Both the position numbers and the translations under genes were made by a program. Positions 12,863 through 39,136 of a stretch of DNA of 39,136 nt are shown piece by piece (the first letter of the stretch is position 1; each line of letters begins with the position of its first letter). Origin of the DNA: Gammaproteobacteria bacterium (lineage in GTDB: Bacteria; Pseudomonadota; Gammaproteobacteria; JAADHQ01); the NCBI GenBank assembly GCA_011052215.1, contig DRJK01000049.1, positions 1 to 39,136 of the forward strand, given 5' to 3'. The notes under the pieces were generated by a model. The model was not told where the DNA came from. It was given only the letters and a program-made list of their open reading frames with translations, and searched no databases.

Positions 12863-15685
12863 ATGTCAAATGACCCGGTATGTGGTATGGATGTCTCAAC
12901 TGACAGTAAACACAGGTATGTCTATCAGGATGCCGAATACCTGTTTTGCAGTGAACACTGTCAACACAAATTCGAGAAAAGTCCCGAACAATATATTGAA
13001 TCTGAATCACAGAAAGATCCGGTATGTGGTATGGACGTTAGCGAACAAAGCGAACATCATCATCAACATGATGGACAGGAATATTACTTTTGCAGTTCAG
13101 GCTGTAAAGACAAGTTCGCTGCACATCCCGAACAATACATTGAATCTGCATCACTGAAAGATCCGGTATGTGGTATGGACGTTAGCGAACAAAGCGAACA
13201 TCATCATCAACATGACGGGCAGGAATATTACTTTTGCAGTTCAGGTTGTAAAGACAAGTTCGCTGCACATCCCGAACAATACATTGAATCTGAATCACTG
13301 AAAGATCCGGTATGTGGTATGGATGTTACCGAAGAAAGTGAACATCATTGTAAACATGAAGAGACTGACTATTATTTTTGCAGTGCCGGGTGCCAGCAGA
13401 AATTCACACTTTCACCAGATACATACCTGAATAAAGAAACACATATCCAGGAAGATGACAGCGCTGTCTATACCTGTCCAATGCACCCTGAAGTCGAGCA
13501 GATCGGCCCCGGCAGCTGCCCCAAATGTGGTATGGCCCTGGAAGCCAAGGGCATACCCGTGTTACCCACAAAAACCCGATATACCTGTCCCATGCACCCT
13601 GAAATTATTCAGGATGAACCTGGCTCATGCCCCAAATGTGGCATGGCGCTGGAATCCATAACCGTTGAGGCAGAAGAAGATAATACTGAACTGGATTTCA
13701 TGACGCTTCGCTTCTGGGTCAGTACCTTGCTTGCCGTTCCTGTTTTTTTCAGCGCAATGGCAGCAGAATTCTGGCCTGAGGCCATGGCCGGACTGATTAA
13801 CCCGCATACCCGACAGTGGGCCGAGCTTGTGCTTTCCACCCCGATTGTCTGGTGGGCCGGCTGGATATTCTATGTACGCGGCTGGCAATCGATTGTCACA
13901 TGGAACCTGAACATGTTTACCTTGATATCCATCGGCGTCAGTATTGCCTGGGTTTACAGTTTCTTCGGTGTTGTTTTTCCGGGTATGTTTCCTGCTGAAA
14001 CATTTAATGAGTTTGGTGTTGTACCGGTTTATTTTGAAGCCGCTTCGGTTATCACCGCGCTGGTGTTGCTTGGACAGGTACTTGAACTGCGTGCCCGAAG
14101 TCAGACCAATAGTGCCATCAAGATGTTGCTGGGCCTGGCGCCTAAAACAGCCCGGCTGGTCAGCGAGGACGGGACAGAAAAGGATATCCCGATGGAACAT
14201 GTAAAACCGGGGGATATGTTGCGGGTTCGTCCAGGTGAAAAGATCCCTGTTGATGGCGTTGTGGTCGAAGGGGAAAGTAATGTAGATGAATCCATGGTGA
14301 CAGGTGAACCGATTCCGGTTGAAAAATCGCCAGGGGAAAAACTGATCGGTGCAACAATCAACGCAACCGGCAGCCTGATAATGAAGGCCGAGAAGGTGGG
14401 TTCCGATACGTTGCTATCACAGATTGTGCAGATGGTAGCAGAGGCCCAGCGTACCAAGGCACCCATTCAGAAACTGGCTGATACAGTGGCCGGTTATTTT
14501 GTACCGACAGTCGTTCTTGTATCTATTATCACATTCATTGTATGGAGTGTATGGGGACCTGAGCCTGCATTGGCCTATGCCGTTATTAATGCCGTTGCGG
14601 TGCTTATTATTGCTTGTCCCTGTGCCTTGGGTCTTGCAACCCCCATGTCGATAATGGTGGGAACAGGAAAAGGTGCTGTCATGGGTGTTTTGATAAAAAA
14701 TGCCGAGGCACTCGAAATCCTGCGCAAGGTTGATACTATCGTCGTTGACAAGACCGGCACCCTGACCGAGGGAAAACCCAAGCTGGTCGCCGTTACAACG
14801 GTTGATGGAATAGATGAAGGCGAGGCACTGTTACTGGCTGCCAGCCTGGAAAGAGCCAGTGAACATCCCCTCGCAGATGCGATCGTTAAAGGTGCAGAGG
14901 ACAAGGGGCTTACGCTGTCCCCAACCAGTAATTTTGAATCAATAACAGGAAAAGGGGTGACGGGGGAAGTTAACCGGCGTCGTGTTGCTCTTGGAAATAT
15001 TAAATTACTCGAGAGTCTCGACATTGAAGCCGGCACATTGCCGGAGCAGGCCGATGAACAACGCACGCAGGGGCAGACTGTTATGTTTCTGGCTATTGAT
15101 GGTAAGGCCGCCGGTTTGATTGGTGTGGCTGATCCAATCAAGGATTCAACACCGGATGCTATTCGCGACCTTCATTCGGAAGGACTTCAAGTTGTCATGT
15201 TAACAGGTGATAGCGCAAAAACAGCCGAGGCTGTTGCTTCCAAACTGGATATTGATCAGGTGCAGGCCGAAGTATTACCGGATCAAAAAGCATCCGTTGT
15301 TAAACAATTGCAAAGTGAGGGACGTATTGTTGCAATGGCAGGTGATGGAATCAATGACGCACCTGCACTGGCACAGGCACATGTTGGTATTGCCATGGGT
15401 ACAGGAACGGATGTTGCTATGGAAAGTGCCGGGGTTACCCTGGTAAAAGGTGACCTCAGGGGGATCGTCAGGGCACGAAGGCTTAGCAAAGCCACCATGA
15501 GAAATATCAAACAAAATCTGTTTTTTGCTTTTATTTATAATGCAGCCGGGGTCCCTGTGGCTGCAGGAATACTTTATCCGTTTTTCGGAATTTTGCTGTC
15601 ACCCATTATAGCAGCGGCAGCGATGAGTTTTAGTTCAGTTTCGGTGATTACCAATGCATTACGTTTACGCAAAGTTAAATTGTAA
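12863..15685 (+). CDS. Cu/Ag-type P1B ATPase with four N-terminal YHS domains
   Basis: This 940-residue inner-membrane pump exports soft metal ions at the cost of ATP. The N-terminus has four 48-residue YHS modules (residues 4-195, each DPVCGM...FCS...C). Two short heavy-metal-binding modules follow (CPMHPE...[10 protein letters not shown], about residues 203-268). The core is a standard P1B ATPase: [20 protein letters not shown] with CPC at 585-587, the phosphorylated Asp629 in [10 protein letters not shown], and [11 protein letters not shown] near 827. The late membrane motifs IYN and MSFSS match Cu(I)-type pumps. The usual CXXC-bearing HMA domains are absent, so YHS modules seem to replace them. 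Confidence 0.93.
12872..13447 (+). repeat. Four tandem 144-bp repeats encoding YHS domains
   Basis: Units start at 12872, 13016, 13160 and 13304, exactly 144 bases apart. Units 2 and 3 differ at only four bases (two in GATGGA/GACGGG, one in GGCTGT/GGTTGT, one in GCA/GAA), whereas units 1 and 4 are clearly diverged. The array therefore includes a recent in-frame duplication inside the ATPase gene. Confidence 0.95.
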
Positions 15686-31762: not shown

Positions 31763-33748
31763 ATGATCACATTAGCCGACGAAGAGCGCGTAGTCGTGCA
31801 AACAAAAGGCCTGAACCGCAAGCAATGGATCGCTGCAGTGATATTTACAGCCATGGCCTTCTACATGTCAACAATTGTGCCAGGTATTGAGATCGCATGG
31901 GTGACTGCCATCCTGCTGTTTACCATCTATCTATTTGCCTTCGAAGTGGTAGGCGTGGATGTGGCGGCGATTACGGTTATGGTATTGCTGGGGCTTACGA
32001 ACCTGTTGGCACCTTTCATGGGACTGGAGCAGGGTCTGGTCGATACACAACATTTATTTGACGGCTTTTCCTCCAATGCAGTCATTTCCATCATCGCGGT
32101 GATGATCATCGGTTCCGGTCTGGATAAAACCGGCATCATGAGCAAGGTAGCGGCCTTTATTCTGAAGACCGGCGGTACCAGTGAGGCACGCATCATCCCT
32201 ATCATCTCCAGTACAGTCGGTGTCATCTCCTCGTTTATGCAGAATGTCGGCGCCGCTGCCTTGTTCTTGCCCGTGGTCTCGCGCATTTCCGCCCGCTCCG
32301 GGCTACCGATGTCACGCTTGTTGATGCCCATGGGCTTTTGCGCCATCCTCGGTGGAACCATGACGATGGTAGGGTCGAGCCCGTTAATTCTGCTCAACGA
32401 TCTGATCCTGACTTCCAACATGGCCCTGCCGGCGAATCAGCAAATGCAGACCTGGTCACTGTTTTCCGTCACGCCGGTGGGCCTGGCGCTGGTGACCACC
32501 GGTATCATCTACTTTGTTCTCGCAGGCCGCTTCGTTTTACCTTCGGCTATCAAGAAGACCGGAACCACCAGCAGTAACACGATGACTTATTTTCAGGATG
32601 TATATGGCCTGAACTACGACCTTTTCGAGGTAGTGGTACCCGATGGCAGCCCTCTTGTAGGCAAGCAGGTCGATGACGTGGAGCACCAGCATCGTATCCG
32701 GATTATTGCCGCGCTGCGGGGCAGCGATGATCTTCGTGTTGGTCCCGGTAGCCTGGCTCGTGATGTTGGCATTGAGGTCGGTACGGTACTGGGCATAATG
32801 TCTGCGCCAAAAAATCTGAAGGCCTTTGTTGAACGCTATGACCTGGAACAACACAAGGGCATCGAAACATTCACCGAGGTGCTGGCCTCTACCAAGGCCG
32901 GTATTGGTGAAATCGTCATACCACCCGGTTCCGGCCTCATTGGCAAGAGCGCACGCGATGTCTGGATGCGCAAGGTTTATGGTATTGCCATGGTCGCACT
33001 GCATCGAGACGGCGAGACCCTGCGTGAGGGAGATGGTATCCGCGACCTGCCGCTACAGGCCGGTGATACTCTGGTTGTACACACCACCTGGGATGCATTG
33101 GCGCGACTGGAAAAAGACCGCAACTTTGTGGTGGTGACCACCGAGTATCCGCATGAAGAGCTGCGTCCGCAAAAAATCGGTTATGCGCTGTTTTTTTTCG
33201 TCACTGCTTTGGGGCTGGTTCTTTTTACCGACCTGCGCCTGTCGGTGGCACTGCTCACGGGTGCCATTGGCATGGTGCTCTCAGGCGTACTCAGTATCGA
33301 AGAGGCCTACGAGGCAGTAAGCTGGAAAACAGTATTTCTGCTGGCTTCATTGATTCCCCTCGGGCTGGCTGTCGAGACTACCGGCACCGCCAAGTGGATA
33401 GCAGAGCAAGTCCTTGATGTAGTGGGGCACATGCCGATCTGGGTGATCCAGTTGGCAGTGGCAGTATTATCAACCTTTTTTACTTTGGTCATGTCCAATG
33501 TGGGTGCCACAGTGCTGCTGGTGCCGCTGGCCGTGAATATCGCTATCGGAGCAGGTGCCGATCCTGCCGTATTTGCACTGACTGTGGCCATCGCCACATC
33601 CAATTCCTTCCTGATTCCCACCCATCAGGTGAATGCATTGATTATGGGACCGGGGGGTTACCGGGTACCGGACTTCATACGTGCCGGCAGTGTGATGACC
33701 ATTCTTTTCCTGATAGTGATGATGCTGATGATGAGCCTGGTTTTCTGA
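31763..33748 (+). CDS. SLC13/DASS-type permease with two TrkA_C domains
   Basis: This 661-residue inner-membrane transporter resembles the divalent anion:Na+ symporter (DASS/CitM-like) superfamily with a central cytosolic insert. Helices fill residues 20-260 and 465-660. The insert (about 285-460) contains two TrkA_C-type regulatory modules, ending in VVPDGSPLVGK and IPPGSGLIGKSARDVWM. MQNVGAAALFLPV and SNVGATVLLVPL are the two inverted substrate-site repeats. Sulfate or another oxyanion is likely. It has its own long upstream region with candidate RNA structure. Confidence 0.88.
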   Translation: MITLADEERVVVQTKGLNRKQWIAAVIFTAMAFYMSTIVPGIEIAWVTAILLFTIYLFAFEVVGVDVAAITVMVLLGLTNLLAPFMGLEQGLVDTQHLFDGFSSNAVISIIAVMIIGSGLDKTGIMSKVAAFILKTGGTSEARIIPIISSTVGVISSFMQNVGAAALFLPVVSRISARSGLPMSRLLMPMGFCAILGGTMTMVGSSPLILLNDLILTSNMALPANQQMQTWSLFSVTPVGLALVTTGIIYFVLAGRFVLPSAIKKTGTTSSNTMTYFQDVYGLNYDLFEVVVPDGSPLVGKQVDDVEHQHRIRIIAALRGSDDLRVGPGSLARDVGIEVGTVLGIMSAPKNLKAFVERYDLEQHKGIETFTEVLASTKAGIGEIVIPPGSGLIGKSARDVWMRKVYGIAMVALHRDGETLREGDGIRDLPLQAGDTLVVHTTWDALARLEKDRNFVVVTTEYPHEELRPQKIGYALFFFVTALGLVLFTDLRLSVALLTGAIGMVLSGVLSIEEAYEAVSWKTVFLLASLIPLGLAVETTGTAKWIAEQVLDVVGHMPIWVIQLAVAVLSTFFTLVMSNVGATVLLVPLAVNIAIGAGADPAVFALTVAIATSNSFLIPTHQVNALIMGPGGYRVPDFIRAGSVMTILFLIVMMLMMSLVF

Positions 33749-35290: not shown

Positions 35291-35728
35291 TTATTCTGTA
35301 CGGTTGACAGGGGTAACTCGCCGATCCTGGTGTAATTTAAGGAGCTTTAGTTTAACCTCGTTATAGAAGGCCGGAGGCAAAAGACCATAGGAGTACTGTG
35401 CATTTGACGTGCGCGATATAGGACGTAAGTCAGGCCCTGGCCAGACAAAACGATTGAGCTCACTGACAATAATCCACGACCGTTGACCGTCCAGCCCTAA
35501 CCGTTTTTTAATCGCTTGAGGTATCTCGATTCCTTCGTTTCTGTCTTGTGGCTCAGTGTGCGTGATCGGGAGAGCCATTATGATTTGCTCATCCTCGCTA
35601 TTGGTAACCGTTAGTATAATGGCGCAAGGGCGATCTTTAATGCCTTCAGCATAGCCGCTATCTGATTCTCTGCGCCATAAATAACTATAATTGATGACAA
35701 GACCGGCCTCTGGTTTAGGATAAGGCAC
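35291..35728 (-). CDS. PemK/MazF-like toxin
   Basis: This 145-residue protein resembles PemK-like growth inhibitors, which are mRNA endonucleases. GLVINYSYLWRRESDSGY and EGIKDRPCAIILTV form the beta-barrel core with the conserved Arg-Pro-Cys, and IMALPITH follows. The GTG start lies three bases after the Phd-type antitoxin stop. It is of full family length and appears intact. Confidence 0.8.
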   Translation of the reverse strand: MPYPKPEAGLVINYSYLWRRESDSGYAEGIKDRPCAIILTVTNSEDEQIIMALPITHTEPQDRNEGIEIPQAIKKRLGLDGQRSWIIVSELNRFVWPGPDLRPISRTSNAQYSYGLLPPAFYNEVKLKLLKLHQDRRVTPVNRTE

Positions 35729-36493: not shown

Positions 36494-36637
36494 TCAGGCA
36501 CGATTTGCACCCTTTACCTATATAGTGGTGCATTTCAGTTTACCGCAATTTTTCCCGTCATTTAGGTTAAATCGGGGATAACTGATGGTAATAAATAGTG
36601 CTTGTATCGCACCATCTTTCTTGTTGAAATGGTACAT

Positions 36638-37363
36638 ATGACGCTCTCCGATACTCAATTATCAAGGCCACGACCGCAAAAGCTGTTTCACCCGGTCGAG
36701 GAGCCACTTTCTACATTTCCGATCCAGTCGGTACGAATCGATTGGGACCGGCTGATCGCAAAACGTCCCACCGTACTTCAGACCATCGATACAATGCCGG
36801 CGTACCTTATAAAACCCGAAGTACTCACATTACTGGAAGCCGAGAAGCACCCGACTTATCGTTTGATACTGGATTTAATGTGGACCACCGGCGCACGCAT
36901 CTCGGAGATTCTAGCGCTCACACCGAGCAGCTTTATCGATGACGGCTATGACTTCGGGGTAATCCTGAAAACCTTAAAGCAACGACCAGGACGCCCCAGT
37001 AAGGCATCCATCCAGCGATCCCCCAAACGTTATGTACCGATCGTTGATTTCGCGTTACAAGATCGTATCCAGAGTTATTTGTATGCCAGAAGGTTTCGAA
37101 AGACAGAACGGATTTTCCCGATGGCAAGACAAACAGTCAACCGGCATATCACTGCGCTGGTTGAGCGGGTAGGGGGTTCACCATTTGCTATCAGTGCCCA
37201 TACGTTTAGGCACTCGTTTGCGATCCATTTGTTACTACATGGTCGGCCGTTGAAATACGTTAGCCAACTGCTTGGGCATAAATCCATCGATAGCACTGAG
37301 ATCTATACCAATGTGCTGACTATCGATGGCGGGCATTTTTTGGAAGGGGTGGACTTTCATTAA
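36638..37363 (+). CDS. Tyrosine recombinase/integrase
   Basis: This 241-residue recombinase has all the catalytic residues: Arg87 (TTGARISEIL), His188 and Arg191 (HTFRHSFA), His214 (LGHKS) and Tyr223 (EIYTNVL). A short N-terminal region precedes the catalytic domain, so the arm-binding domain of phage integrases is missing or reduced. This resembles plasmid- or element-borne resolvases. Starts at TTG 36602, ATG 36629 and ATG 36638 are possible; none has a strong ribosome site. Its stop overlaps a 10-codon frame that leads into the downstream NTPase gene. Confidence 0.85.
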   Translation: MTLSDTQLSRPRPQKLFHPVEEPLSTFPIQSVRIDWDRLIAKRPTVLQTIDTMPAYLIKPEVLTLLEAEKHPTYRLILDLMWTTGARISEILALTPSSFIDDGYDFGVILKTLKQRPGRPSKASIQRSPKRYVPIVDFALQDRIQSYLYARRFRKTERIFPMARQTVNRHITALVERVGGSPFAISAHTFRHSFAIHLLLHGRPLKYVSQLLGHKSIDSTEIYTNVLTIDGGHFLEGVDFH

Positions 37364-37395
37364 TGAAACATATTGAAATGGATTGTAATTTATGA
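37363..37395 (+). other. 10-codon bridging ORF between recombinase and NTPase
   Basis: ATG 37363 overlaps the recombinase stop (TAATG) and its TGA overlaps the start of the NTPase gene (ATGA at 37392-37395). The peptide is MKHIEMDCNL. Such a chain would keep ribosomes moving from the recombinase into the next gene, since the NTPase start has no obvious ribosome site of its own. Confidence 0.4.
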
Positions 37396-39136
37396 GCTTA
37401 GCAGGCATTCATGCTAGTCAAGGCTACGACTTTCAACAATTAATTGCATTACAGTGGGTAGTAAACCTATTTACACAAGACGATATTGAAGCAATTCAGA
37501 TTGAGTCTACTGGTATTCCAGGTGAAAGCAATGAAGTTACGGTTGACGATGTTGTTATAATCTACAAAGATAAAACGAGAAAGTATATACAAGCTAAGAA
37601 AAACCAAACGCACTATAAATCTTGGTCTTTGTCAGATAAAACAATTAAAGATGAATTACCTAAAGTACTGACTCAGCTGAAACAGGGAAAAGAATTCATT
37701 GTAGAGTTTGTTTCTAGATCTTCATTTGGCAATTTAGAAAAACTTACCAAGAACTGTTTGCTTATATCTAGCCTAAGTCATCTAAAGTCTAATGGACCCA
37801 AATCAACACTTAATGATTTAAATAAACTCTCAGCCATATGGGGAGCAGATCTTAATGATACTTTTAACCTTGTTCAACATATAACGTATGGTAGTCCAAT
37901 AAATGATGAAGAAAGACTCGCCTACATATCATCGTTATTAAAATCTATTGTTGCACATCCTGACCTTGCGATTCTTTATCTTAAGGATCTTGTAAATGAA
38001 TACACAGTTAAAGCCAAACCAGGCAAGCATATTCTTCGAAAAAGTGATGTTATAAAGTTTCTGAATAGCAACGGTATTTTCAGTGCCCCAGAATTCGATA
38101 ACTCCAAAATAATCGCTGAGTTAAAAACTTTGTCACAGATAGGGCGGCAGTGGCAACGCGACATTGACGGTATAAAAATAGAACGACATGAAGTTAACAC
38201 TATTTTAAACCTAATTTCCAACAACACAAAGACTATATTGCTTACCAGCATGCCAGGTTCAGGAAAAACATGTGTTTTACTCGATCTATGTGATGCAATT
38301 GATTCCTCACCTGATATATTAGCTTTCCTTAAAGGCGACTGGCCATTATGGGATAATATAGAAGGTGGCGGCTCATTCGTATCTAAATGTGCTCGGTTAT
38401 CAGAATCACACCGTATTATTCTTGTTATTGATGCGCTCGATGTTCTCTCATTAAATCGAGAACATAACGCTCTAAAACGTTTTCTGACCTTAGTAGATCA
38501 ACTATCTCGTGTCCCCAATATCATCATCATTGCTGCTTGTCGCAGCTTTGATGCACAATATGATCCTCTACTTAGAAATCGAAAATGGGAACAGGTTATT
38601 GAATTGGGCGATCTTAACTATGACTTGCAGGTTGCACCACTTTTAAACAAATGGAATGTTGATGTTGATACATTGACTAATGACCTTAAAAATCTTCTAG
38701 TCAATCCTAGAAAACTAGCTCTATTCTCTATGATTGCAAGCAGGCCATCATCCTTAAAACTACGTAGCGGCTACGAGCTTGATGAACTATTCATACAAGA
38801 ATTGATTGTAAAGAACGTGGGGCTCGGTGCGTCTGCGTTAAACGCATTATATTCGCTAGCATCAAAAATGGCGGAAAACCGGCGTCATACACTAGATGAG
38901 TCAATCGCTGCTATAGACCCTAATATCCAACGAAACCTGATCAGCAATGGTGTAATTGCGATTGATAAGAACAACAGAATATTTTTCAATCACCAATCAC
39001 TATATGAAACCATTTCAATAAGATCTGCAATAACGAAGGGGAAAAGTTTATTGGAGTTCATATTGTCATATCCACCACTTCCATATATACGCCCCTTAAT
39101 CCGAGCTTTCTTTTTTCAGCTTCGCTCCCAATCACA
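37392..39136 (+). CDS. PD-(D/E)XK-like nuclease fused to a STAND-type NTPase (3' end outside window)
   Basis: The frame stays open for 581 codons to the window edge. Residues 1-120 resemble Cap4/DUF4297-like nuclease domains: GIHASQGYDFQQ, then Glu38 (IQIES), Asp52/Asp53 (TVDDVVI) and Gln67-x-Lys69 (YIQAKK). After a helical linker comes a P-loop NTPase with Walker A TSMPGSGKT (Lys292) and Walker B ILVIDALDVL (Asp347), followed by AACRSF, as in STAND ATPases of Avs-type immune proteins. The C-terminal sensor is not in view. The gene is visibly more AT-rich than the rest of the window, which suggests horizontal transfer. Confidence 0.8.
   Translation, partial: MSLAGIHASQGYDFQQLIALQWVVNLFTQDDIEAIQIESTGIPGESNEVTVDDVVIIYKDKTRKYIQAKKNQTHYKSWSLSDKTIKDELPKVLTQLKQGKEFIVEFVSRSSFGNLEKLTKNCLLISSLSHLKSNGPKSTLNDLNKLSAIWGADLNDTFNLVQHITYGSPINDEERLAYISSLLKSIVAHPDLAILYLKDLVNEYTVKAKPGKHILRKSDVIKFLNSNGIFSAPEFDNSKIIAELKTLSQIGRQWQRDIDGIKIERHEVNTILNLISNNTKTILLTSMPGSGKTCVLLDLCDAIDSSPDILAFLKGDWPLWDNIEGGGSFVSKCARLSESHRIILVIDALDVLSLNREHNALKRFLTLVDQLSRVPNIIIIAACRSFDAQYDPLLRNRKWEQVIELGDLNYDLQVAPLLNKWNVDVDTLTNDLKNLLVNPRKLALFSMIASRPSSLKLRSGYELDELFIQELIVKNVGLGASALNALYSLASKMAENRRHTLDESIAAIDPNIQRNLISNGVIAIDKNNRIFFNHQSLYETISIRSAITKGKSLLEFILSYPPLPYIRPLIRAFFFQLRSQS

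Follow-up and report, generated by a model that had tools for sequence, protein, structure and literature searches.

Does the gene that runs off the end of this contig encode a sensor of invading phage, and what kind of protein is it the front of? The window, that is the whole stretch of 39,136 nucleotides analysed here, is an entire contig (C49) of a 2.6-Mb source genome in 183 contigs, and its last reading frame (37392-39136, plus strand) starts ATG AGC (MS...) and has no stop through the final base. The protein thus breaks off at an edge of the assembly, not at a stop codon. What is left is the front third of a large immune-sensor-type protein, a DNA-cutting domain followed by an NLR-like ATPase switch. 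A first-pass annotation, made from the letters alone, had proposed a truncated nuclease-STAND NTPase; its motifs are present, and the match to PDB entry 9N00 over residues 1-577 (E 8e-83) confirms it. The AT-rich composition noted at the same time is also real, with a GC of 0.386 across the gene and about 0.42-0.58 in the rest of the window. Our preferred reading, which we consider probable, is a single-gene, Avs-like STAND immune sensor of the PDB 9N00 family, of which the fragment supplies the effector and the switch. Its parts are:

37392..39136, + strand: nuclease-STAND gene fragment, open at its 3' end, 581 codons (expected full length ~1,520 aa; homologues 1,504-1,548 aa)
37392..38006, + strand: predicted PD-(D/E)XK nuclease domain of Cap4/HamA/Avs3 type, residues 1-205 (model, Foldseek, weak Pfam and PADLOC matches)
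37545..37598, + strand: putative catalytic D52-D53 ... Q67-x-K69, near-invariant across 85 alignment rows
38151..38621, + strand: STAND/NACHT/AAA-type NTPase core, residues about 254-410 (PF00004; fold match to Avs3/Avs4, CED-4, NOD2 and NLRC4)
38253..38270, + strand: Walker A PGSGKT, residues 288-293
38418..38441, + strand: Walker B ILVIDALD, residues 343-350
38823..39035, + strand: winged-helix-like region, residues 478-548, with H534 (from the secondary structure of the model)

The nuclease and the NTPase switch

The nuclease pattern, VDDVVIIYKDKTRKYIQAKKNQ, occupies residues 51-72. Across the 85 rows of the family alignment, position 53 has D in 80, N in three and no residue in two, while Q67 and K69 are each kept in 82, and the departures at these three positions are confined to caspase-fused homologues, one Q-to-E replacement and one fragment; every complete caspase-free protein retains the active-site residues, one of them with E for Q67. 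Profile libraries respond faintly, Pfam with a sub-threshold match of residues 4-113 to the Cap4 nuclease (PF14130, E 0.002) and PADLOC with LmuA (E 6e-7) and HamA (E 4e-5) at the N-terminus. When the nuclease alone is modelled (residues 1-214, pLDDT 86.8), Foldseek gives Avs3 as the best match (E 6e-8, TM 0.68 on the query), followed by HamA (3e-5), Cap4 (5e-5) and LmuA (1e-4), with restriction-type endonucleases such as BstEII ranked lower. The model supports assignment of the N-terminal ~205 residues to the PD-(D/E)XK nucleases, in the group of Avs3, HamA, Cap4 and LmuA. With these as the nearest solved folds the N-terminus does not lie outside the PD-(D/E)XK fold, and the D...QxK nuclease recognised at first pass stands.

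The STAND-type NTPase, its winged-helix-like region included, spans residues ~254-548, and Pfam AAA (PF00004) matches residues 282-405 above cut-off (E 1.4e-6). G289, G291, K292 and T293 of Walker A and D347, L349 and D350 of Walker B are identical in 85/85 rows, as are R384, F386, D387, W399 and H534. The 'DALD' that had been read as STAND-like turns out to be the window protein's own form of a 'DSLD' near-universal in the family (84/85), and the Walker A/B assignment is sound. By these alignments, the conservation of the motifs together with the E of 8e-83 to 9N00 is far beyond chance.

An AlphaFold2 model of the fragment, built from a 47-member alignment, has a mean pLDDT of 85 and a pTM of 0.79. 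Searched with Foldseek against PDB entries released up to April 2026, the whole model finds Avs3 with terminase (8DGC, E 7e-17) first and Avs4 with portal (8DGF, E 3e-13) second, with ORC subunits, CED-4, NOD2 and NLRC4 below them; 9N00 is absent among the fold hits listed. It is this ranking that bears out the earlier description of the protein as Avs-like. The TM-scores to Avs3 and Avs4 are low (about 0.3), the match being carried by the E-values and not by global superposition, and such scores would be expected if the domains are arranged differently.

The 9N00 family and its C-terminal part

A PDB sequence search gives a single strong relative, 9N00/9N01/9YIX, an 'AAA family ATPase' of 1,523 aa, ~32% identical to the window protein, colinear with it over all 577 comparable residues and possessing the same nuclease and NTPase residues; the profile match between the window protein and the family reaches E 7e-268. 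The structure is deposited and apparently unpublished, a literature search having found neither a publication for these entries nor a phage assay on the family. A scan of genome contigs with a single sequence gave no relative, but with an alignment as the query 84,980 reference genomes yielded 113, of which 80 were kept, and IMG/VR contigs added three of full-length type. The 80 reference-genome loci and the three viral-contig loci align colinearly, the best identity to the window protein is about 41%, and complete representatives, mostly 1,504-1,548 aa long, keep this colinearity as far as the C-terminus. So far as sequence tells, the window protein is the N-terminal part of one of these ~1,520-residue single-gene proteins, a family widespread yet rare. 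An unnamed protein is hereby placed in a concrete family whose structure is deposited, and homologues are identified in culturable hosts, intact ones from Pectobacterium (L063), Enterobacter (L038) and Pseudomonas (L048) among them, where the anti-phage hypothesis is directly testable.

The tree sets a large, mainly proteobacterial clade, inside which 9N00 pairs with a Pectobacterium protein, against a sister clade of cyanobacterial, Desulfobacterota-type, Thiothrix, Prolixibacter and Magnetococcales proteins. Unlike 9N00 the window protein falls with the second of these, on its own long branch (1.52) and with its precise placement unsure. Two individual members may be mentioned here. A homologue in genome G306 (L006), ~70% identical to 9N00, has one in-frame TAA in its NTPase domain, so that it is either a pseudogene in nature or affected by a sequencing error. 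In the closest plasmid homologue (L003:8001-13826, Nostoc sp. MS1 plasmid) an IS630 transposase interrupts the gene, whose C-terminal half persists as a separate 'hypothetical protein'.

The sensor had been placed beyond the window at first pass, and relatives do have a C-terminal region of ~940 residues that would here lie past the contig end. In this part 96 columns are at least 90% conserved, and its between-clade conservation is 0.25-0.31, with 0.30 for the nuclease and 0.41 for the NTPase, so that the presumed sensor is not hypervariable. Nor does it look like the C-terminus of a housekeeping ATPase, an outcome that the first-pass annotation had singled out as damaging: no housekeeping ATPase model comes above cut-off in five full-length relatives, and one C-terminal piece scanned alone detects no Pfam family. 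Where, then, is this part in the source genome? The last 60 bases of the contig, as a DNA query, match nothing in the rest of the genome, and a relative's 936-residue C-terminal region, as a protein query, finds nothing in the rest of the 95%-complete, 183-contig assembly, whereas in controls (G306, one IMG/VR contig and the Nostoc plasmid) the same query recovers its target. The C-terminal part was either lost by the assembly or the copy is truncated. That the source genome holds a truncated or decaying copy from which a working protein is no longer made is unlikely in our judgement. The fruitless C-terminal search beside three positive controls would suit such a remnant, as would the long branch and the breakage seen in the Nostoc plasmid and G306 relatives, but the frame is open to the contig's last base, the catalytic and nucleotide-binding residues are intact, and the contig stops exactly here, for which an assembly gap is the simplest reason.

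Relatives in Cyanobacteria include some in which a caspase domain has been joined to the N-terminus:

L021:5349-8018: Rhizonema, full-length nuclease with D53 changed to N
L022:9101-14617: uncultured cyanobacterium, full-length nuclease with D53 changed to N
L085:9179-14314: Nostoc carneum, NN for DD, QTQ for QAK and ~110 residues deleted
L004:6987-12116: Tolypothrix, NN for DD, QTQ for QAK and ~110 residues deleted
L039:9386-14134: Rivularia, caspase present, nuclease not recognisable

Pfam recognises the caspase in three of the fusions (L004, L022 and L039, at E about 1e-11 to 1e-12), and all five have the AGHG and LDCC motifs of its His and Cys. The three alignment rows with N for D53 are L021, L022 and L085, which form one group in the tree (support 100/97), L039 not being confidently with them; the second row without a nuclease, L050, is an ORF incomplete at its N-terminus. 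The Tolypothrix, N. carneum, Rhizonema and Rivularia fusions share the NTPase and C-terminal part of the family and are 36-38% identical to the window protein, but at their N-terminus a caspase has taken the place of the nuclease, of which a mutated version, one half or nothing is left. All caspase-free cyanobacterial relatives examined retain D53, Q67 and K69. Though drawn from few sequences and from one or two events, this distribution points to the nuclease as the effector, to its replaceability by a caspase on the same switch and sensor, and to the decay of a nuclease so replaced. Further, there is perhaps an even chance that the family forms an Avs-type lineage of its own, whose effectors can be exchanged on a sensor almost constant in length and conserved in sequence, and in which a cyanobacterial caspase took over while the nuclease lost D53 (D53N), then half its length, then everything. 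If true, evolution would here have left a trace of an immune receptor exchanging one weapon for another. The caspase-fused relatives offer a ready-made comparison of the same sensor with a nuclease or a protease effector.

Two other STAND proteins were noted. A distant relative on an IMG/VR contig (L096:6852-11957) is a 1,701-aa protein with a PNP_UDP_1 (nucleoside phosphorylase), a STAND and a helical part, encoded between phage portal-type and terminase-type genes on the opposite strand. It may be a defence gene carried by a prophage and equipped with one more kind of effector. On a Nostoc sp. C057 plasmid (L011:4731-10041) a TIR-like small protein and a site-specific integrase precede a SEFIR-STAND protein whose NTPase is related.

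Distribution, neighbours and proposed function

The family is present in 2/369 genomes of a class survey and in 4/399 of a phylum sample, the own genome being counted in each and one of the four matching in its NTPase part only. No member turned up in the three other genomes of the genus, and E. coli genomes and phage records held no detectable relative at the sensitivities used, while members occur on plasmids and on the three IMG/VR contigs. The distribution is patchy and of mobile type.

The neighbourhood had been pictured as a recombinase with two toxin-antitoxin pairs, and these are broadly present:

36602..37363, + strand: XerD-like tyrosine recombinase, directly upstream of the nuclease-STAND gene (PF00589, E 7e-22)
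35291..35728: partner of the Phd antitoxin, weakly PemK/MazF-like (E 0.09), which may be a divergent toxin

The other pair consists of a RES toxin (E 1e-24) and an Xre-like partner (E 0.003, below cut-off), and the Phd antitoxin itself matches with an E of 5e-8. As an argument for defence the whole neighbourhood is weak, not being conserved in relatives. Could the recombinase and the nuclease-STAND gene nevertheless constitute a two-gene system? They lie on the same strand 28 bp apart, and Kamptonema (L013) and Herpetosiphon (L012, a distant relative) likewise have a tyrosine recombinase as the next gene upstream, at 168 and 23 bp respectively. These are, however, just 3/88 loci with the window included, the three recombinases are only distantly related, that of the window without the N-terminal SAM-like domain of its two counterparts, and the family has no constant neighbour, so that we regard such a system as highly improbable. 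The recombinase is accordingly rejected as a conserved partner and is best read as a mobility neighbour, probably not a component.

More generally, no neighbouring gene is conserved across the family loci. The flanking genes are very diverse and many are ordinary, with known defence families in isolation: Gabija GajA, AbiEii, a type I methyltransferase and WYL regulators. Around the gene itself, a search for repeats or element ends gave chance-level matches only, and a DNA search for an empty site in the three other genomes of the genus gave no readable insertion boundary, its sole yield being 69-75% identical matches to part of a transporter gene at 31763-33748. Elsewhere in the window, at 12863-15685, is a heavy-metal P-type ATPase with four consecutive N-terminal YHS domains, repeats that look recently duplicated, and two heavy-metal-binding domains.

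Homology to 9N00, the fold matches to Avs3 and Avs4, the conserved C-terminus, the retention of the active site and the patchy distribution argue for an immune sensor; the sub-threshold Cap4 match in Pfam and the want of a conserved defence neighbour argue against. The latter feature would suit a STAND regulator with another purpose, a stress or programmed-death switch or one for plasmid or element maintenance, and a C-terminal region that is conserved and not hypervariable would also fit an internal trigger. Yet such a regulator is quite improbable given the strength of the fold match to Avs3 and Avs4, the patchy mobile distribution, the swapping of effectors and the carriage on plasmids and viral contigs.

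For the immune sensor, a working mechanism can be proposed because of the analogy with Avs proteins and their order of effector, NTPase and sensor. The C-terminal helical region would keep the protein autoinhibited; on its binding a conserved feature of a phage or other invader, the NTPase would exchange its nucleotide and assemble into an oligomer; the Cap4-type nuclease domains at the N-termini, brought together in this way, would cut double-stranded DNA; and the cleavage would halt infection, probably via killing or arrest of the host. What the computation shows is the anatomy alone, with family membership, the order of domains, the conservation of catalytic residues, the Avs3/Avs4 fold match, the colinear C-terminus of relatives and the exchange of effectors in cyanobacteria; ligand binding, oligomerisation, DNA cleavage and protection from phage are inferred.

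Comparison with known defence systems

Avs proteins are defined as tripartite, with effector, NTPase and sensor, and have nuclease effectors in Avs1-4 (PMC12931631). The effector, STAND and C-terminal sensor architecture, and the fold, are found here too, complete in the relatives. Avs3 and Avs4 (AVAST types 3 and 4; 8DGC and 8DGF), the top fold matches of the whole fragment, have the same order of nuclease, STAND and large helical sensor as the 9N00 family, but are 13-16% identical to the window protein in structural alignment and were not found by PDB sequence and profile searches with it. Neither the window protein nor its full-length relatives match the Avs models of PADLOC and NCBIfam. 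Because these curated profiles do not match, the protein should not be filed as Avs1-5 as catalogued; it is Avs-like, in the 9N00 family. That no specific subtype could be named at first pass is thus in keeping with the silence of the models, 9N00 being the nearest structure-bearing relative.

Cap4 of CBASS, HamA of Hachiman and LmuA of Lamassu share the nuclease fold and D...QxK pattern with the window protein. Cap4 works with a SAVED sensor, HamA with a helicase and LmuA with an SMC-like partner, whereas the nuclease of the window protein is joined to a STAND NTPase in one chain, without any conserved partner gene. CBASS Cap4 was set aside, an NTPase being in the place of SAVED and no cyclase being recognised in the window neighbourhood, and likewise Hachiman and Lamassu, this being a single-gene family without a conserved neighbour cluster (HamB helicase or LmuB SMC-like). 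As for bNACHT, the window protein has no Pfam NACHT match, and 37/47 relatives have one at E <= 0.1 (best 1e-8). The Pfam, PADLOC and NCBIfam libraries used do not name the family, and the kind of system is one already known.
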